A stretch of DNA of 64,000 nucleotides, taken from the NCBI GenBank assembly GCA_900472295.1, contig UCIA01000023.1:87399-151398 (forward strand). The letters are read 5' to 3'. Shown here in pieces: positions 33,625 to 45,578 of this stretch (the first letter of the stretch is position 1; the number at the start of each line of letters is the position of its first letter). The notes below the pieces were generated by a model. The model was not told the origin of the DNA and did no database searches. It worked only from the letters and a program-made list of their open reading frames with translations. The position numbers were made by a program, and so were the translations under genes. Origin of the DNA: Hyphomicrobiales bacterium (GTDB taxonomy: Bacteria > Pseudomonadota > Alphaproteobacteria > Rhizobiales > Rhizobiaceae).

Positions 33625-34671
33625 TCAAGGGGCCGCGACCGGCGTCCAGATCACGTCGTCGATCCTGCTCGCCCCCGTCGCCAGCATCACCAGCCGGTCG
33701 AAGCCGAGCGCCGAACCGCTGGCTTGCGGCATGATGGCGAGGGCGGCGAGAAAATCCTCGTCCAGCGGATAGCGCTCGCCGTAGACGCGTTCCTTCTCGT
33801 CCATCTCGGCGGCGAAGCGCCGACGTTGCTCGGCGGCGTCAGTGAGCTCGCCGAAAGCGTTGGCGAGTTCGACGCCGCAGCAATAGAGCTCGAAGCGCTC
33901 GGCAACGCGTGGGTCATCGGCGCTTGGCCGGGCGAGTGCTGCCTCCGAGATCGGATAGCCGTAGAGGATGGTCGCCCGCCCCTGCCCCAGCACCGGCTCG
34001 ACCTTTTCGACCATCACGCGGCTGAACAGGTCGGCCCAATTGTCATCGTCGGCCGTGCGAAGGCCGGCTTTGACCAGAGCGTCATGAAGCGCATCGCGGT
34101 CCGTGCTGCCATCGGCGGCCACGGTGGCGAGCAGGTCGATGCCGGCATGGCGCTGAAACGCTTCGGCGACGCTTACACGCTCCGGCTCGGCGAACGGATC
34201 GGCCTCGCGGCCGCGAAAGCGGAAGCTTTTGGCCCCTGCCCGCTCGGCCGCGAGCTTCAGCAGCTCGGCGCAATCGGCCATCAGGCTCTCATAGGTTTCG
34301 CCGACCCGGTACCATTCGAGCATGGTGAATTCCGGGTGGTGCAACGGGCCGCGCTCGCGGTTGCGCCAGACGGCACCCAGGCTGAAGATGCGCCGTTCGC
34401 CGGCGGCAAGCAGCTTCTTGCAGGCGAATTCCGGCGAGGTGTGGAGATAAAGCGGCCGGCGTGCGCCATCAGAACCGATCGCCTCGGTGGCGAAGGCCGA
34501 GAGATGCGCCTCATTGCCGGGCGATATCTGCAGCGCCGCCGTCTCGACCTCGATGAAATCGCGGCGCGCGAACCAGTCGCGCATGGCGGCCGCGATGCCG
34601 TTGCGCGCCATCAGCCGCGGCCGGCGGTCGGCGTGAACATGTGGCGTCCACCAGGGCGAAGCCTCAGTCAT
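33625..34671 (-). CDS. epmA: EF-P lysine lysyltransferase EpmA
   Basis: A 348-residue class II lysyl-tRNA-synthetase paralogue without the N-terminal anticodon-binding domain; the ATG at 34671 is preferred over 34686. Class II motifs are visible: RNGIAAAMRDWFARRDFIEVET (motif 1 area; shown in part as RDWFARRDFIEVET), RNRERGPLHHPEFTMLEWY (motif 2) and ALGFDRLVML (motif 3). EpmA attaches beta-lysine to Lys34 of EF-P. It is divergent from efp, 129 bases away, which makes this assignment firm. Confidence 0.95.
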   Translation of the reverse strand: MTEASPWWTPHVHADRRPRLMARNGIAAAMRDWFARRDFIEVETAALQISPGNEAHLSAFATEAIGSDGARRPLYLHTSPEFACKKLLAAGERRIFSLGAVWRNRERGPLHHPEFTMLEWYRVGETYESLMADCAELLKLAAERAGAKSFRFRGREADPFAEPERVSVAEAFQRHAGIDLLATVAADGSTDRDALHDALVKAGLRTADDDNWADLFSRVMVEKVEPVLGQGRATILYGYPISEAALARPSADDPRVAERFELYCCGVELANAFGELTDAAEQRRRFAAEMDEKERVYGERYPLDEDFLAALAIMPQASGSALGFDRLVMLATGASRIDDVIWTPVAAP

Positions 34672-34800
34672 GAGTTTGCCGGGCAACGGAATCGCTGACA
34701 GGGCTGGCGGTTCGGGCCAAGATGCGCTACGGCGAGCGCTCTCGCAGCCGATTTGCGCCGAACGATCGTTTCAGGCCAACGAAGTCTAGGATTGAAAACC

Positions 34801-35370
34801 GTGGTGAAGGTCATCGCCAGTTCGCTCCGTAAAGGCAATGTCGTCGACAAGGACGGCAAGCTTTACGTGATCCTCTTTGCCGAAAACATCCACCCTGGCA
34901 AGGGCACGCCGGTCACCCAGCTCGACATGCGCCGCATCTCCGACGGGGTGAAGGTTTCGGAGCGCTACCGCACCACCGAACAGGTCGAGCGCGCCTATGT
35001 CGAGGACCGCGAGCACACCTTCCTCTACGCCGATGGCGAAGGCTATCACTTCATGAACCCGGAGAGCTACGACCAGGTCGCGGTGCCGGAAAGCGTCGTC
35101 GGCGACATGGCGCCTTATCTGCTCGAAGGCATGGCGGTGCAGGTCTCGCAGTTCAATGGCGTCGCCATTGCCCTGGTGCTGCCGCAGCGCGCCACTTTCG
35201 AAGTGGTCGAGACGGAGCCGACGACCAAGGGCCAGACGGCGTCGTCGTCCTACAAGCCGGCCGTGCTGTCCAACGGCGTGCGCACGCTGGTGCCGCCGCA
35301 CATCGCGCCGGGCACCCGCGTGGTGGTGATGACGGCTGACGGGGCTTACGTGGAACGGGCGAAGGACTGA
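34801..35370 (+). CDS. efp: Elongation factor P
   Basis: A 189-residue protein from GTG 34801, which gives the canonical N-terminus [14 protein letters not shown]; an upstream in-frame start would add sixteen atypical residues. The modification site is Lys34 in [12 protein letters not shown] helps ribosomes through polyproline stretches. The OB domains and C-terminal [12 protein letters not shown] are present. Divergent epmA modifies it; the beta-lysine-forming EpmB is not in the window, so its gene must lie elsewhere if beta-lysylation is used. Confidence 0.97.
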
Positions 35371-38004: not shown

Positions 38005-38799
38005 TTACCGCGTCAGACGTGCGCTCTGGTGAGGAGTTGCAATGCCGCAGACAAGCTCAGATTCGTGCCTTAGCCCGCACGCCTCCACCATTCGGCGGGA
38101 TGGTAAGTTCGTTGGTGAGATAAGCTCGTAGACGTGGGTCGCGTTGAGATCGCGGAATACGCTGACAATCATACGCGCGTTGACATAGCTGCCCAGCCCT
38201 TTACCCCGCTGCGCTTCCGCCACCGCAACAAGCCCGCCCCAAGCATATTGGTGATAAGGGCTGAAGGAGTTGTGTGGCAGGTAGCCGTGAGCCGCCGCCA
38301 CTACAGTGCCGTCCTTTTCACCAATCGTCACAGTGGATGCGGGGCCCACGCCGCCCGTCAGCATTGAGCCTGAGAACGGCACCACGCCCGCATCATTCAT
38401 AAGGGTCTGAATTCTAGCCGTGTCCTCACCCTGTGGGTCGGCCGGCCGCTCAAGCTCCCTGAATTCGGCCGGTAGACCATGTGACAGGATTGCCTCCGAA
38501 GCCGCCAGAGCGGAACGGCGATCAGCGAGGAAAACGTCCCATCTATCGAAGCGGAAACCCTGCGCTTCTAGATGGGACTTTAGCTTGTCCGCATTACTGG
38601 ATGGGATAAGACGGAAGCCGCAGACGCCGTCGCGATCGAGAAATTCAGCAATCCGTGCCCAGCCCAGCCGCTCGGGGTCGTCGCAGCCCATGGTACGCCC
38701 TGTCTGGCAGGCACCGGCTGTTACGTTGATGAACTCAGCACTCGCCTCCGCCTGGGCCTGCAGGCGCTGCTGTATCGGCGTGCCGAAATAGCCTGTCAT
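38005..38799 (-). CDS. GNAT family N-acetyltransferase
   Basis: A 264-residue protein from the ATG at 38799, which has GGAGGGA nine bases upstream; codons above that are not protein-like. The C-terminal half has the GNAT fold with the acetyl-CoA loop QRGKGLGSYVNARM (motif A, about 205-218) and PSRRMVEACGLRHE (motif B). The N-terminal half (about 1-120) may be a second, degenerate GNAT-like domain. Substrate unknown. It is divergent from the synthetase operon, with 660 bases between. Codon use is somewhat less GC-biased than in the flanking genes. Confidence 0.8.
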   Translation of the reverse strand: MTGYFGTPIQQRLQAQAEASAEFINVTAGACQTGRTMGCDDPERLGWARIAEFLDRDGVCGFRLIPSSNADKLKSHLEAQGFRFDRWDVFLADRRSALAASEAILSHGLPAEFRELERPADPQGEDTARIQTLMNDAGVVPFSGSMLTGGVGPASTVTIGEKDGTVVAAAHGYLPHNSFSPYHQYAWGGLVAVAEAQRGKGLGSYVNARMIVSVFRDLNATHVYELISPTNLPSRRMVEACGLRHESELVCGIATPHQSARLTR

Positions 38800-39459
38800 G
38801 ATTGATCCCTCCGAGGGGTTCAACCTACCCAGAGAGAAATAACTTGCCAAGCAGCCGTCGCCAGAACGATAGCGGTCGCATAGCAAACATGCGGAGCCAT
38901 TCGCATGGCCACGGTGGCCTCAGCCGTCCCGTCGGTTCGGCAATTGGCACGGCCACCGGTTTCATCACGTTGTATTGTGTCCGATCTAATCGGACACGTT
39001 ATGGTCCACGAGCTAGGATTGCATCGAAATTTGCAATCAACGAGTCGGCGATGCGGTCGAGGCGGCAGGAGTTGTCACCTTTGGCGACGGTGCAGCCCTC
39101 ATCGCGGGCCAGATTACTGAATGGCGGCTTTAGCACCATAGAATCGTGGCGCGAATGACTGACTTGAGCCGCAAAGCGGTTCTCCTGCTTCAGAGCCAGT
39201 AAGGGGCGCTTCAGCATTCCCTCCTCAAGGCCGAACAAGACGGATCCCCGCCCAGACACACTCCAGAAACAAAATTCAACAGTTCGGAAAAACCGGCGAA
39301 AAGATCGGGTGGCATAAGCTTCCGCGGTCGGGATTGCGGGTTCTTCCTTTTTGGAAGCGTCGGTCCTCCATCAACAAATCGCAGCGGCGGCAGGGCAAAA
39401 CATCCCTGATCGAGCGGCGGCATGAACAGCCGGGCGTTGCCCGGCCAGGACGAGAGAGT
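38800..39459. other. Long intergenic region upstream of the synthetase operon
   Basis: This 660-bp stretch contains a 21-bp palindrome at 38977-38997 but no ORF I trust. A minus-strand frame of 86 codons (38999-39259) and plus-strand frames from 38802 and 39334 are short and resemble nothing I know. It must carry the promoters for the leftward GNAT gene and the rightward synthetase operon. Base composition is mixed, and decayed coding sequence is possible. Confidence 0.45.
38977..38997. promoter_or_regulatory. Palindromic candidate operator
   Basis: GTGTCCGA-TCTAA-TCGGACAC, with perfect 8-bp arms and a 5-bp centre. The length suits a dimeric repressor. It lies about 180 bases upstream of the GNAT start and 460 bases upstream of the synthetase start. 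The regulator is unknown. It could also be the end of a lost mobile element, but no partner repeat was seen. Confidence 0.4.
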
Positions 39460-42400
39460 ATGGACATGGACTACGATATCGCCGGACTGGACAGCGACAC
39501 GGCAACGCCGATCGGCCAAACCGACTTGGCAAGTGCGCTGGCAAGGATCGCTCACCGCCCGCTAAGGGACGGCCAGGTCCTGACGGGCGCCGACTTCGCC
39601 CGGCATGGCCACCAGCCGGGTGAGCGGCTCGATACGGTTTTCGAGCAGCTCGCCATAACCTTCGCCGCGTTGCCGGCGGTGATCTCCGACGGGCGTGTCT
39701 GGACGTATCAGGAGCTGAACGACCGTGCCAACCAGTTCGCCCGCATGCTGATCAAGCACGGCGTGCGGCCGGGCCACCGGGTCGGGCTCATTCTCGACCG
39801 GTCGGCGGAGACTTATGTCGCGTTGCTGGCGGTGATGAAGGCGGGCGCTGCCTTCGTGCCGCTGGCCACCGCGTTTCCTCAAGAGCGGATGGCGCTGATC
39901 ATCGAAGACGCCGGCGTCAGCATGATCGTCACCATCGCTGCCTATGCGTCGCGCGCCGGTCAACTGGCCGTTCCGCATGTGCTGATCGACAGCGCCGCCG
40001 CCGAAATCTCCGCACAGTCGCCCGCGCCGCTGAAGCCGCAGGCGAAGACGACCGACGACATTTGCTACATCCTCTATACCTCGGGCACCACCGGCAAGCC
40101 CAAGGGCGTGGTCATCACGCACCAGAGTTTCGTCAACTTCATCCACGTCGCCGCCGCCTCCTACGGCTACCGGCCGGGCGACCGGGTCTACCAGGGCATG
40201 ACCATTGCCTTCGACTTTTCCTCCGAAGAGATCTGGGTGCCGTTCGTCGCCGGCGCGACGGTCGTGCCCGCACCTGGCCAGATGCCGCTGGTGGGCGAGG
40301 AACTGGCGGATTTCCTGCGCCTTCATGACATCACCTGCATCGCCTGCAGCCCGACCTTGCTGTCGTCGATGACGTCAGACGTGCCCAGCCTGCGCACGCT
40401 TTTGGTGGGCGGCGAGGCCTGCCCGCACAATCTGGTGGTGCGCTGGTCGAAGCCGGGGCGCCAAATCCTCAACACCTATGGCCCGACCGAGGCGACCGTC
40501 ACCGCGACGATGGGGGCGCTGACCCCTGACGCTCCGGTGACCATCGGCGCGCCGCTGCCGACCTACTCGATCGTCATTCTCGACGCCTCGCTGCCGCAGC
40601 TTGCCGAGCCGGGCGAACTGGGCGAGATCGGCATTGCCGGTATCGGGCTCGCCGTCGGCTATCTCAACCGTCCCGACCTGACCGAGCAGAAATTCATCGC
40701 CGATTTCATCGGCCTGCCGAACAACCCGTCGCAGCGCATCTACCGCACCGGCGACCTTGGCCGGATCAACGATCAGGGCGAGATCGAGTATGCCGGGCGC
40801 ATCGACACGCAGGTGAAGATCCGGGGATATCGCATCGAGCTCGGCGAGATCGAGGCGGTGCTGCTCGACCAGCCCGAGATCGCGCAGGCCGCCGTCACCA
40901 CCTGGGAGATCGAACCCGGCCGCGTCGAGCTCGTCGCCTATTACGCGCTTAAGAGCGGTGTAGCGGCGATTTCCCGAGGGGATCTCGCCCAGACGATGAA
41001 GCGGCGGCTGCCGGACTATATGGTGCCCGCCTATCTGGAGGAACTGCCTGCCATCCCGATGACAGTCTCCAACAAGGTGGATTTGCGCCAGCTGCCGAAG
41101 CCGACGAGCGTCCGGCTTTCGGCCGACCGCGCCATGGTGGCACCCAGCAATGACGACGAGCGTTTCCTGGCCGAAGCACTGGCCACGGTGCTGAAATTCG
41201 ACGCGGTGTCGGTCGAGGACCACTTCTTCGACGACCTCGGCGCCAACTCTTTGCTGATGGCGCATTTCTGTGCGCGTGTGCGCACCAGGAAGGAATGGGC
41301 GACGACGTCGATGCGCGACATCTATCTCTTTCCGACCGTCGCGCGCCTCGCCCAACATCTTGGTGTGGCGCAGGAGTTGACGACCGCAACCAACGAGCCG
41401 GTTCTCACCCGCCGGGCCTCGAACTTTGCCTACTGGACCTGCGGCGCGGCGCAGCTTTCGTTCTACGGTCTCTACAGCTACGTGGCACTGTGGGCGATCA
41501 ATGGCGGCCTCAACTGGATGTATGACGCGCTCGACGATCCGCTGCAGCTTTATATCAGGTGCGTGGCGCTCTCGGCCGCCGTGTTCTTCGGCATGTCGGG
41601 CTTTGCCGTCCTTGCGAAGTGGGTGCTGATCGGCCGCTGGAAGGCCGAGGCGTTTCCGATCTGGGGCGTGCGCTACTTCCGCTTCTGGGTGGTCAAGACG
41701 TTGATCCGCACCGCACCCGTCGTGCTGTTTCGCGGCAGCCCGCTTTACAGCCTCTATCTGCAGCTGCTCGGCACCAAACTGGGCAAAAACGCCGTCATCG
41801 AATCGAAATCCGTGCCCGTCTGCACGGATCTCATTTCGATCGGCGACAACACCATCCTGCGCAAGGAATCGATGATCCTCGGCTTCCGGGCGCAGTCCGG
41901 CTATATCCATACCGGGCCGCTGACCATCGGCCGCGATGCCTTTGTCGGCGTCGGCTCCACGCTCGACATCGACACCCGGATCGGCGACGGCGCCCAGCTC
42001 GGCCATTCGTCCTCGCTGCATCGCGGCCAAAGCATCCCGGACGGCGAGCACTGGCATGGATCGCCAGCGGTGCCGACCAGCGCGGACTATTGCAAGGTGC
42101 GCAACGTCAATCCTTACCAGGTCCGGCGCTTCCTCTATGAGGCGCTGCAGCTGATCGGCCTGTTTGGCGTTGTCACCCCGCTGCCGCTGCTGTTCCACAG
42201 CTACTGGGAATATGTCGGTGACGACTATCAGGAGACGATCGGCCTTGTCGCCATCGGCACCACGGTCACGCTGTTCGGCTATATCGCGGCGGCCTTCCTG
42301 GCGGCGACGCTGGTGCCGCGCCTGACGAGCCTGATCTTGAAGCCTGGCCGCACCTACACGCTTTACGGTTTCCGCTACTGGCTGCAGACCGTCGCCGAAT

Positions 42401-43563
42401 TCGCCAGCAATTCCCGCGTGCTCGGGCTCTTGGCCGGCGACAGCTCGGCGATCGTGCACTACATGCGCGCCATTGGCTGGAACCTGAACAGAGTGGTGCA
42501 GACCGGTTCCAATTTCGGCTCCAACCAGCAGCACGAAAACCCGCTTCTGTGCGAGATCGGCACCGAGACCATGGTGTCGGACGGGCTGTTCATGATCAAC
42601 ATGCACAAGTCGGCTTCCGCCTTCCGGCTCGAGCCGACGCGCATTGGCGAGCGCAACTATCTCGGCAACAACATCTACTATCCGCCGGACGGCCGCACCG
42701 GCGACAATGTCCTGCTCGGCACCAAGGTGATGATCCCCATCGACGGTCCGGTGCGCGAGGATGTCGGCCTTCTCGGTTCGCCTGCCTTTGAAATCCCGCG
42801 CATGGTGAACCGCGACAAGGAGCTCATCGCCGGCGTCAACGAGGCGGACCGGCGCCAGCGCATCCCGTTCAAGAACCGGCACAATCTGGTGACGATCCTG
42901 CTGTTCCTGGCAACGCAATGGGTCATGCTGTTCGCCACGCTGGCGATCTGGGACCGGGCGCTGAACTATTATACCGAATGGGCGGAGGTCGCTCTGTTCG
43001 CCGCCGTGCTCTTGACCTCGGCGATCACCATTCCGTTCTACATACTGGTCGAGCGGGCAAGCATCGGTTTCCGGCGCCTGAAGCCGCAGATGACGACGAT
43101 CTACGACGTCGCCTTCTGGCGCCACGAACGCCACTGGAAGCTGGCGGATTCGCCGATCGTGCGGCTGTTCGCCGGCACGCCGTTCCGGCCGATGATCCTG
43201 CGTATGCTCGGCGTCAAGGTCGGCAAGCGGGTCTATGATGGCGGCAGCAATTTGACCGAGCGTTCGCTGGTCGAGATCGGCGACGACGTCACGCTCAACG
43301 AGGGCTGCGTCATCCAAGCCCATTCGCTGGAAGAAGGTGCGTTCAAGTCCGACTTCATCCGCATCGGCGATGGCTGCACGCTCGGACCGTCCGCCTTTGT
43401 CCACTATGGCGTGGTGATGGGCAAAGGCTCGATGGTCGATGCCGACTCCTTCGTGATGAAGGGCGAGGAGCTGGAGCCCAACTCGATCTGGCGGGGCAAC
43501 CCGGCCAAGCTGCACCGGTTCGTCGAGCCGGTCACGGACGATGGTTCCAGGGCATCGGCTTGA
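39460..43563 (+). CDS. Pls/PosA-type single-module nonribosomal peptide synthetase
   Basis: A 1367-residue protein from ATG 39460. An adenylation domain (about 55-560) shows YTSGTTGKPKG (about 206), NTYGPTEATV, YRTGDLGRI and KIRGYRIELGEIE. A carrier domain has the phosphopantetheine Ser597 in LGANSLL. Then come six membrane segments (near 657, 697, 893, 930, 1142 and 1180) that frame three hexapeptide-like soluble domains C1-C3. There is no condensation or thioesterase domain. This is the plan of epsilon-poly-lysine synthetase Pls, in which the C domains join monomers through isopeptide bonds. The Asp of AFDFSSEE fits an alpha-amino acid. The product is unknown; the adjacent PPTase would activate the carrier. 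Confidence 0.88.
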   Translation: MDMDYDIAGLDSDTATPIGQTDLASALARIAHRPLRDGQVLTGADFARHGHQPGERLDTVFEQLAITFAALPAVISDGRVWTYQELNDRANQFARMLIKHGVRPGHRVGLILDRSAETYVALLAVMKAGAAFVPLATAFPQERMALIIEDAGVSMIVTIAAYASRAGQLAVPHVLIDSAAAEISAQSPAPLKPQAKTTDDICYILYTSGTTGKPKGVVITHQSFVNFIHVAAASYGYRPGDRVYQGMTIAFDFSSEEIWVPFVAGATVVPAPGQMPLVGEELADFLRLHDITCIACSPTLLSSMTSDVPSLRTLLVGGEACPHNLVVRWSKPGRQILNTYGPTEATVTATMGALTPDAPVTIGAPLPTYSIVILDASLPQLAEPGELGEIGIAGIGLAVGYLNRPDLTEQKFIADFIGLPNNPSQRIYRTGDLGRINDQGEIEYAGRIDTQVKIRGYRIELGEIEAVLLDQPEIAQAAVTTWEIEPGRVELVAYYALKSGVAAISRGDLAQTMKRRLPDYMVPAYLEELPAIPMTVSNKVDLRQLPKPTSVRLSADRAMVAPSNDDERFLAEALATVLKFDAVSVEDHFFDDLGANSLLMAHFCARVRTRKEWATTSMRDIYLFPTVARLAQHLGVAQELTTATNEPVLTRRASNFAYWTCGAAQLSFYGLYSYVALWAINGGLNWMYDALDDPLQLYIRCVALSAAVFFGMSGFAVLAKWVLIGRWKAEAFPIWGVRYFRFWVVKTLIRTAPVVLFRGSPLYSLYLQLLGTKLGKNAVIESKSVPVCTDLISIGDNTILRKESMILGFRAQSGYIHTGPLTIGRDAFVGVGSTLDIDTRIGDGAQLGHSSSLHRGQSIPDGEHWHGSPAVPTSADYCKVRNVNPYQVRRFLYEALQLIGLFGVVTPLPLLFHSYWEYVGDDYQETIGLVAIGTTVTLFGYIAAAFLAATLVPRLTSLILKPGRTYTLYGFRYWLQTVAEFASNSRVLGLLAGDSSAIVHYMRAIGWNLNRVVQTGSNFGSNQQHENPLLCEIGTETMVSDGLFMINMHKSASAFRLEPTRIGERNYLGNNIYYPPDGRTGDNVLLGTKVMIPIDGPVREDVGLLGSPAFEIPRMVNRDKELIAGVNEADRRQRIPFKNRHNLVTILLFLATQWVMLFATLAIWDRALNYYTEWAEVALFAAVLLTSAITIPFYILVERASIGFRRLKPQMTTIYDVAFWRHERHWKLADSPIVRLFAGTPFRPMILRMLGVKVGKRVYDGGSNLTERSLVEIGDDVTLNEGCVIQAHSLEEGAFKSDFIRIGDGCTLGPSAFVHYGVVMGKGSMVDADSFVMKGEELEPNSIWRGNPAKLHRFVEPVTDDGSRASA

Positions 43564-44021
43564 CCAGCGCAGACATCCGTCTTGTCTCGGTGACCGCGGC
43601 CAACCGAGCCCTGGTCGCGGCGCTGGAACTGGCCCCGGACCAGATGGATTTCGTCGCCGGCAATGCGGAGTCGTTGGACGAAGCCTAAACGGACGCAGAC
43701 GCACGGCCACGCGTCGTCATGGCTGGCGATCGCATCGTCGGTTTCCTGATGTACGAGGCGCCGCAGGATGACGATGAGGCGCGGATCTACCGCTTCATGA
43801 TCGATCGCGCCGATCAGGGCCGAGGCTACGGCAAGGCCGCGTTGCGTGAAGTGCTGGATGAAATCATCGGGCTCGGCAACATCAGGCACGTATCGATCTG
43901 CTACGAACCTGGGAATGAAGCGGCGCGCCACCTCTATCGCGCTGCCGGTTTCGTCGAAGAAGGGCTAGACGAGGACGGGGAAATGATCGCCGACCTCGCT
44001 TTGCCGGGCGACCAGCCATGA
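43560..44021 (+). pseudogene. GNAT acetyltransferase with an in-frame stop codon
   Basis: From TTG 43560, which overlaps the synthetase stop (TTGA), the frame reads an N-terminal GNAT segment (TSADIRLVSVTAANRALV...NAESLDEA), then TAA at 43686-43688, then TDADARPRVVMAGDRIVGFLMYEA and the acetyl-CoA loop DQGRGYGKAAL. Reading the stop as an aromatic codon would give a typical 153-residue GNAT protein. Either the gene is inactivated, or a 100-residue C-terminal part is made from ATG 43719. It overlaps the PPTase start by four bases, so the operon frame is otherwise kept. A GNAT here could modify the amino-acid product. Confidence 0.8.
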
Positions 44022-44686
44022 CACAGCCGCTCGACGTTGACGCCAGCCTGTCAGCGCAGCTGAAGGCAGCAATGGTCGCCATGGCGCCGATCGGCGTTCG
44101 GGTCGGTTGCCGCACGATACGCGAAGGCGATGAGAACCATCTGCTGCCGCAGGAAGCACGCTCCATCCCCTCACGCCAGCCGATGATGCGGCGGGCGAGC
44201 GGCGCGGCGCGGTGGATCGCGCGCGGGCTGCTTGCGGATATGGGCTTGAACGACGTGGCTGTTCTGCGCGGCTCGTCCGGTGCGCCGGTATGGCCTCATG
44301 GAATAACGGGTTCGCTGGCTCACGATGACGACATGGCCGTGGCGGCAATCGCGCCGCTCTCGCACATCGCCTCGCTTGGCATCGATGTCGAGCCCGCCCT
44401 GCCCTTGCCCGACGACGTCTTGGCGCTCGTTGCAATGCCCGCTGACCGGACCGACACAACCGACCGGCATCTTGCCGGTCGCATCCTCTTCTCGGCCAAG
44501 GAAGCTGTCTACAAGGCCGCCTACCCGCTTGATCGCGAAGTGCTGGGCTATGAGGACATCACCGTCGATCTCAACGCAGGCACAGCTACGACGAACACGG
44601 GCCGCAGAGCGAGACTGGTATACTGCGTTGCGCCGCGTGTGGTCGTTCTGGCGTTTGTCGATGGCGACGGAGGCTCGTCCCTGTAA
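44018..44686 (+). CDS. 4'-phosphopantetheinyl transferase (EntD/Sfp type)
   Basis: A 222-residue PPTase. Core motifs are TGSLAHDDDMAVAAI (about 97-111), LGIDVEPA (about 121) with the Mg2+ ligands, and FSAKEAVYKAAYPL (about 159). It transfers phosphopantetheine from CoA to carrier-domain serines. Located directly behind the synthetase and overlapping the broken GNAT gene by four bases (ATGA), it is very likely the activator of the synthetase carrier domain. Confidence 0.93.
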   Translation: MTQPLDVDASLSAQLKAAMVAMAPIGVRVGCRTIREGDENHLLPQEARSIPSRQPMMRRASGAARWIARGLLADMGLNDVAVLRGSSGAPVWPHGITGSLAHDDDMAVAAIAPLSHIASLGIDVEPALPLPDDVLALVAMPADRTDTTDRHLAGRILFSAKEAVYKAAYPLDREVLGYEDITVDLNAGTATTNTGRRARLVYCVAPRVVVLAFVDGDGGSSL

Positions 44687-44699
44687 GTGCGGTTCCGCC

Positions 44700-45578
44700 T
44701 CACCCGGCGGCGCGCTTGCCGCGTTTGCTCTTGCCGGCCCTCGCTTCCACCGCCTTCTCGATCTGCCGCTTGAGCTCGTCCTTGATCTCGACGGTCTCGG
44801 CCATCAGCGTGTCGATCTTCATGAAATCGAGCACGCGGTATTTCGACACCGGCGGGCGGATCAATATGTCTGGAGGGCACTGCTTCAGCTTGTTGGCGAT
44901 GATCGACTGCATCATCAATTGCGTGGCGCCGAACATCAGGTCGACGGTGGTCGGGTGCTTGCGTTCGGCTTCGCTCGGCGCGCCGACGACGTCGATGGCA
45001 ATGATGATGTCGGCAGCGTTTTCGATCAGGTCGAACGGCACCGGATTGTAGATGCCGCCGTCGATCAGCACGCGGTCGTCACGCGTCACCGGGCGGAACA
45101 CGGCGGGAATGGCCGCCGAGGCGGCGAGCGCCGAATGCAGGTCGCCCTCGTCGAAGACGGCCAGGCTGTGGCCGAAATAGTCGGTCGCCGTCACCTTGAG
45201 CGGGATCTTCAGCTCGGCGAAGGTTTCGGGAATGGCTTCGGGCAGGAAGGCCTTCAGGATGCGCTCGATGTTGAACTGGCTGACGCGGATGCCGCCCTGC
45301 ATGGCCTCGGCGATGGTGCCCGGCCGCGAGCGCCACATGCGCGCCGCCACCTCGGCGCGGCGGCTGAGGATCGAGCGCGCATAGTCCTCGATCTCCTTGC
45401 CGCTCATGCCCGATGCCATGCCGGCGCCCATGATGGCGCCGATCGAGGAGCCGGCGATGGCCACCGGCTTGATGCCGAGCTCGTCCAGCGCCTCGACAAT
45501 GTGGATGTGGGCCAGGCCGCGGGCGCCGCCGCCGCCAAAGGCAACGCCGAAGGTGGGACCCGAGGTGGAGTTGGTCAT
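44700..45578 (-). CDS. Patatin-like phospholipase family protein
   Basis: A 292-residue serine hydrolase of the RssA/YchK type. The oxyanion loop FGGGGARGLAHI (about 13-24), nucleophile GSSIGAIMGA (about 43-52) and Asp dyad DGGIYNPVP (about 170-178) are present; the C-terminus is lysine/arginine-rich. It likely hydrolyses acyl esters of phospholipids. No signal peptide is seen, so it is cytoplasmic or membrane-associated. Its start overlaps the M16 peptidase stop by four bases, so it is the last gene of a three-gene minus-strand operon. Confidence 0.9.
   Translation of the reverse strand: MTNSTSGPTFGVAFGGGGARGLAHIHIVEALDELGIKPVAIAGSSIGAIMGAGMASGMSGKEIEDYARSILSRRAEVAARMWRSRPGTIAEAMQGGIRVSQFNIERILKAFLPEAIPETFAELKIPLKVTATDYFGHSLAVFDEGDLHSALAASAAIPAVFRPVTRDDRVLIDGGIYNPVPFDLIENAADIIIAIDVVGAPSEAERKHPTTVDLMFGATQLMMQSIIANKLKQCPPDILIRPPVSKYRVLDFMKIDTLMAETVEIKDELKRQIEKAVEARAGKSKRGKRAAG

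Follow-up and report, generated by a model that had tools for sequence, protein, structure and literature searches.

The window analyzed here, a stretch of 64,000 nucleotides from a draft genome of the Hyphomicrobiales (6,448,763 bases in 78 contigs), contains a three-gene cassette encoding a synthetase of the Pls/PosA family, a GNAT acetyltransferase and a 4'-phosphopantetheinyl transferase (PPTase) (Table 1). Its main enzyme very probably builds a positively charged polymer from units of a single basic amino acid. Taking the whole mechanism proposed below together, we consider it probable that the product is a cationic isopeptide homopolymer, most likely of a short diamino acid. The nearest named matches of the synthetase are from Mesorhizobium, with identity up to 91%.

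Table 1. Features of the pls-GNAT-PPTase cassette, in positions of the window
Feature	Position	Strand	Evidence
pls-type synthetase (P0001), 1367 aa	39460..43563	+	ORF; domain and family profiles; many relatives align from query residue 1; dN/dS 0.13-0.17
adenylation domain, residues 69-539	39664..41076	+	domain profiles; pocket code DFEALGTVTK
carrier domain, residues 569-634, phosphopantetheine Ser = S597	41164..41361	+	PP-binding profile; conserved Ser
membrane polymerization domain, residues 660-1349, three helix-pair and beta-helix units	41437..43506	+	TIGR02353, profile search, AlphaFold2 model, Foldseek
GNAT acetyltransferase gene, polyamine-acetyltransferase-like, interrupted here	43560..44021	+	domain profiles; open relatives
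in-frame TAA within GNAT gene	43686..43688	+	absent at that place from 61/61 aligned loci
4'-phosphopantetheinyl transferase (PPTase)	44018..44686	+	4PPT_N and ACPS domains

Domain architecture of the synthetase

By the sequence tests that we ran the synthetase classifies as a member of the Pls/PosA family, as proposed in an earlier note on this DNA: with TIGR02353, the NRPS_term_dom model of the Pls/PosA terminal domain, it gives 939 bits, about twice the cut-off of 423.1, in a match covering positions 1-695 of 695, and it is the only protein of the genome to match this model above the cut-off. Together with the AMP-binding, AMP-binding_C and PP-binding domains recovered by the domain profile search, this match bears out the single adenylation-carrier-membrane plan that the note had described. 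No condensation or thioesterase domain was matched in the synthetase by the same search. Of the 74 aligned rows, 73 have a serine at the carrier residue S597 and the other has a gap. In pairwise comparisons with seven relatives pls gives dN/dS values of 0.13-0.17 and the PPTase gene 0.16-0.25, and both look constrained. An antisense ORF of 1111 codons (40375-43710) overlies pls and was taken as a high-GC artefact.

An AlphaFold2 model of residues 655-1367, built from 36 sequences (mean pLDDT 72.5, pTM 0.78), shows a long helix pair followed by a beta-rich unit three times over, the third unit, a beta-helix, being of low confidence. Five of the six helices coincide with hydropathy peaks, a signal that is weak by itself, as stretches 118-139 and 144-163 of the soluble adenylation domain also exceed the threshold. 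A profile search and Foldseek gave weak but consistent matches of this domain to hexapeptide beta-helix acyltransferases, with the beta-helix units matching O- and N-acetyltransferases, and the model published for PosA (PMC10522769) agrees with the helix-pair/beta-helix arrangement seen here. Of the three tandem C domains that the note had reported, the threefold repetition is thus real, but a condensation identity is not, for no condensation family was matched and the units resemble the hexapeptide acyltransferases instead; "C domain" is a term of Pls nomenclature and does not denote the NRPS condensation fold.

Gene order and surroundings of the cassette

The genes are tightly packed, with four-base overlaps between pls and GNAT (TTGA at 43560) and between GNAT and PPTase (ATGA at 44018). 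The PPTase gene does belong to the operon, as the note had it, and carries both domains expected of an enzyme of the Sfp/PptT type, but the overlap that the note had placed between it and the following gene is with the preceding GNAT gene; the next gene, a patatin-like one at 44700-45578, lies on the opposite strand and does not overlap it. In NCBIfam the PPTase matches Npt, PptT and EntD, each time below the cut-off of the model. The genome has two PF01648 matches, namely the cassette PPTase and a protein on contig C63 that looks, by eye, like the short holo-ACP-synthase type. As there are six carrier-domain matches in the genome, Pls among them, the cassette PPTase could also serve other carriers.

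A domain search of the flanking genes inspected found no exporter, in agreement with the note. Upstream of pls, a second GNAT-fold gene lies on the minus strand at 38005-38886; a search of the 73 named synthetase loci that we collected gave no match to it. About 4 kb before the cassette there is a gene for EF-P and, at 33625-35370, a class-II tRNA-synthetase-like gene of the lysyl type, which we take to be EpmA-like. Scans for promoters (0 sites against 1.0 in shuffles) and terminators (6 against 3.7) were uninformative.

Conservation and mobility of the cassette

Of the 73 named loci, 70 have a synthetase with a DFEA..TK pocket code and three (L077, L080 and L081) do not. Among these 70 relatives an open full-length GNAT gene is present in 54, a PPTase gene just downstream in 63 (those of L040 and L057 resting on a partial profile match) and both in 50. 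The 16 loci without an open GNAT include two, L045 and L065, with less than 700 bases of flank, and L018, which retains a remnant; the seven without a PPTase include L045, L065 and L021, all with such short flanks, L021 and L045 having a partial PPTase match. GNAT begins at most 250 nt after pls in 61 loci from several genera, a count in which some genomes appear twice and one gene is a remnant. A further 13 regions of the same clade show PPTase in 12 cases and GNAT in 10. The three genes form a cassette; nevertheless, GNAT is not needed for synthesis, because an open copy is missing from 16 of the 70 relatives.

Beyond this clade, the Methylibium locus L077 has the PPTase and lacks GNAT. With the cassette's own profiles neither gene was found in another 22 Pls regions (L152-L173), for 20 of which the code was read. 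None of 12 regions with the code DLEDLGTVVK or DLEDIGSVVK shows either gene by these profiles, and a plasmid region shows neither. Because the clade itself supplied the sequences for the profiles, distant PPTases may escape them; the flank of L173 extends only 1.2 kb downstream; and some of the genomes behind the regions added to the named loci, in-clade or not, appear to be the same as named ones. Mesorhizobium comanense has two pls copies on separate contigs (L018 and L026), of which L018, with its GNAT remnant, lacks the PPTase. A Rhodococcus erythropolis plasmid (L132:9968-16019) encodes a Pls with the code DFEYLGTVTK; the genes after it are annotated as BPL-N-domain and heparan-glucosaminide-acetyltransferase-domain proteins, the latter being another acetyltransferase-type gene beside a Pls, and neither was matched by any NCBIfam model.

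Pls is found in 68 of the 119 genus genomes sampled, in 12 of 151 genomes taken from the family and in 27 of 398 taken from the phylum, the source genome being counted each time. The patatin-like neighbor is a hydrolase-type gene, contrary to the note's statement that no hydrolase gene is adjacent, yet in eight of eight genus genomes examined it stands, in kept order with a pair of M16 peptidase genes and two others, presumably rsmD and rluB, with no cassette in the fetched region; six of these eight carry Pls elsewhere. The cassette is thus found at different sites, GNAT staying with pls, and in one Phyllobacterium and one Shinella strain pls is on a plasmid. Flanking repeats and odd base composition were sought as traces of mobility, and nothing convincing emerged.

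The adenylation pocket

The ten code positions were placed on the synthetase at residues 252, 253, 256, 295, 315, 317, 339, 347, 348 and 539 and read across an alignment of 113 sequences, made up of the window and 112 loci (of 113 loci taken, one gave no row). DFEALGTVTK is present in the window and 74 loci, DFEAMGTVTK in 10 and DFEALGTITK in one. The numbering is sound, for these columns also recover the codes published for PosA (DMEHNGTVSK, four loci) and for a Bdellovibrionales enzyme (DSECYGGVTK, one locus). In 14 loci they give DLEDLGTVVK or DLEDIGSVVK, close to the code published for rhizobia and Methylobacterium, which further supports the placement. In the rows of three actinobacterial loci (L080, L133 and L134) the domain is missing or badly aligned at the code positions; there the match to pls starts only at about the carrier domain. 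In L134 pls is preceded by an AMP-binding gene that has a partial adenylation match, and some 2.5 kb downstream there is an SbnA-like gene whose 237.8 bits fall short of the cut-off of 349.95.

Code positions 1 and 3 are occupied by D252 and E256, which along with T339 and T348 align with Asp217, Glu221, Thr304 and Ser313 of PosA, where the Asp and Glu bind the two substrate amines with assistance from the Thr and Ser (PMC10522769). The acidic pair would fit a diamino acid. The note's tentative suggestion that these residues suit a basic amino acid is therefore supported. At position 2 the enzyme has F253. A Phe here has been reported for the DAP and DAB (PDAP/PDAB) synthetases, against Met in ornithine and Ala in lysine enzymes, and the larger residue has been argued to shorten the pocket (PMC10522769). 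It points to a short diamino acid of the DAP/DAB type, a monomer predicted from the pocket only.

Monomer supply

The DAB transaminase (Dat) model scores above its cut-off in three of 21 genomes, the source genome not being among them (best match there 264 against 401.6 bits), and the SbnA model in none of the 21; the best SbnA-model match in the source genome carries CBS domains and was set aside. The expected DAB or DAP would thus come without a recognized source at the cut-offs of these two models. A PF00202 aminotransferase encoded upstream of pls in the Rhizobium loci L045, L046 and L053 has 30-31% identity to a Dat and was dropped as a candidate; that of L046 sits behind genes for a glutamine synthetase and an N-formylglutamate amidohydrolase. 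In L061 a PF00202 aminotransferase gene is some 7 kb from pls, and Dat used as a query found no match in the other loci searched.

The acetyltransferase

The GNAT gene had been correctly recognized as a member of the operon, but it is not intact: an in-frame TAA, missed by the earlier note, cuts the frame and leaves open a 100-codon C-terminal half from the ATG at 43719. None of the 61 aligned loci has a stop at this position. Since the remaining part of the gene shows dN/dS values of 0.13-0.22, the interruption would be either recent or an assembly error.

The intact relative from L009 matches the spermine/spermidine acetyltransferases 9dsb and 2fl4 over its full length (E about 1e-13), and a profile of 19 GNAT relatives matches them with E 5.8e-22 (9dsb, positions 2-143 of 147) and 7.3e-22 (2fl4, 3-143 of 147). 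With a structural model (pLDDT 89.8) as the query, Foldseek places SpeG and the 9dsb/2fl4 entries at ranks 1-3 and 5, with RimI and GNATs of other function close behind; identity in this comparison is 29% to both 2fl4 and 9dsb. The best NCBIfam matches are below cut-off (RimI 42 of 86 bits, EctA 29 of 121 bits) and include no polyamine enzyme. By these comparisons the nearest solved relatives of the cassette GNAT appear to be the spermine/spermidine acetyltransferases. Unlike 2fl4, 9dsb and SpeG, it adjoins a polymer synthetase, and it is broken in the window strain.

Proposed mechanism and alternatives

To the gene content, domain plan, pocket residues, conservation and cassette behavior observed here we add activation, polymerization and isopeptide linkage by analogy with the characterized relatives, and synthesis of a homopolymer from the family; the identity of the monomer, the role of GNAT and the biological purpose we only infer. 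The PPTase would add phosphopantetheine to S597 of the carrier. The adenylation domain would then activate one diamino acid, most likely 2,4-diaminobutyrate (DAB) or 2,3-diaminopropionate (DAP), and load it on the carrier, whereupon the membrane-embedded domain with its three beta-helix units would link the carboxyl to the side-chain amine of the next residue, repeatedly. A polymer of variable length would be released at or through the inner membrane. GNAT might acetylate free amines of the polymer or of the monomer, limiting charge or protecting the producer, in which case the window strain with its interrupted gene would make an unacetylated product.

The monomer could differ while the enzyme remains of the same kind. 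Ornithine and lysine are common metabolites, and the failure to find a dedicated DAB or DAP source at model cut-offs speaks for one of these two; we nevertheless regard this as rather unlikely in view of the Phe at code position 2, where ornithine and lysine enzymes have Met and Ala (PMC10522769). Another candidate is beta-lysine supplied by a neighboring lysine 2,3-aminomutase, as in the epsilon-poly-beta-lysine of Streptoalloteichus, for a KamA-family gene is present in the pls flank of 28 of the 70 named loci (that of L024 with Radical_SAM and LAM_C domains). We rejected it on distribution, KamA being absent from four of 19 Pls-bearing genomes and present in one of two without Pls. Moreover, the single KamA gene of the source genome is on another contig, in a region (L187) without any cassette gene. 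KamA has a role in EF-P modification, and with EF-P and the lysyl-tRNA-synthetase-like gene in the window this single KamA could serve that pathway. The published code for this substrate, DGESISVVNK, also differs from DFEALGTVTK, and altogether beta-lysine is hardly credible as the monomer.

Returning to the proposed homopolymer, one may ask whether a polymer is made at all. The likeness of the beta-helix units to O- and N-acetyltransferases and the lack of a linked exporter would also suit a membrane aminoacyltransferase that moves the activated amino acid to a lipid or envelope glycan acceptor; this appears quite improbable, as the full-length members for which PMC10522769 and PMC4668381 describe a product are polymerizing enzymes. 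As for GNAT, a separate polyamine or small-molecule acetyltransferase that merely hitchhikes in the operon, unrelated to the polymer, is a possibility to be taken seriously, though we do not favor it: an open gene is wanting in 16 of 70 relatives, it is broken here while pls is constrained, and no family model names its substrate. Against this, GNAT lies within 250 nt of pls in the 61 loci noted above (duplicates and one remnant included), across several genera, and it remains with pls where the cassette occupies different sites.

Relationship to known systems and implications

PosA, the delta-poly-L-ornithine synthetase of Acinetobacter baumannii (PMC10522769), shares with the cassette synthetase the adenylation-carrier-membrane plan with beta-helices, the Asp at code position 1 and the Glu at position 3; it differs in its code (DMEHNGTVSK against DFEALGTVTK) and is described as a single-gene operon, against the three-gene cassette here. 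In our tree, which has no anchor of tested product and long branches that meet, and was used only for the distance between PosA-coded loci and this clade, the former lie on a separate deep branch far from the latter. Compared by description, the PDAP synthetase of Streptomyces albulus PD-1 (PMC4668381) and the gamma-poly-DAB synthetases (PMC8117764) share the Phe at position 2 and the family plan. In S. albulus PD-1 L-DAP is made by cysteine-synthase-like and ornithine-cyclodeaminase-like proteins (PMC4668381), and a figure legend gives dat and ask as part of the gene context of such synthetases (PMC4668381/PMC8117764); no such supply genes were found here at the cut-offs of the SbnA and Dat models.

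The earlier note regarded a rhizobial poly-amino acid of this kind as new. Pls homologues from rhizobia and Methylobacterium have in fact been published (PMC10522769), so that family and host group are the same, but their code, DLEDIGTV(T/V/I)K, and their branch of the tree differ from those of the cassette synthetase. In the literature searched we found no report of a rhizobial pls-GNAT-PPTase operon, although Supplementary Table 2 of PMC10522769 might list the clade. In the literature examined, the producers of cationic homopolymers are actinomycetes, Acinetobacter and a fungus (PMC7179176), and no N-acetylated homopolymer is among the polymers that PMC10522769 lists. This raises the speculative, and on present showing unlikely, possibility that Mesorhizobium and its relatives share a transferable cassette for a short-chain poly-DAB or poly-DAP isopeptide whose charge is set by a dedicated acetyltransferase of the polyamine type, that is, an N-acetylated homopolymer, with strains varying in charge through loss of the acetyltransferase. 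If the cassette does produce a cationic homopolymer, acetylated or not, the presence of Pls in over half of the genus genomes sampled (68/119) would mean that this polymer is widespread among legume symbionts and their soil relatives, in whose rhizosphere habitat polycations with antifungal or surface-binding action could play a part, and the linked acetyltransferase would offer a direct handle on how a producer tolerates its own polycation.
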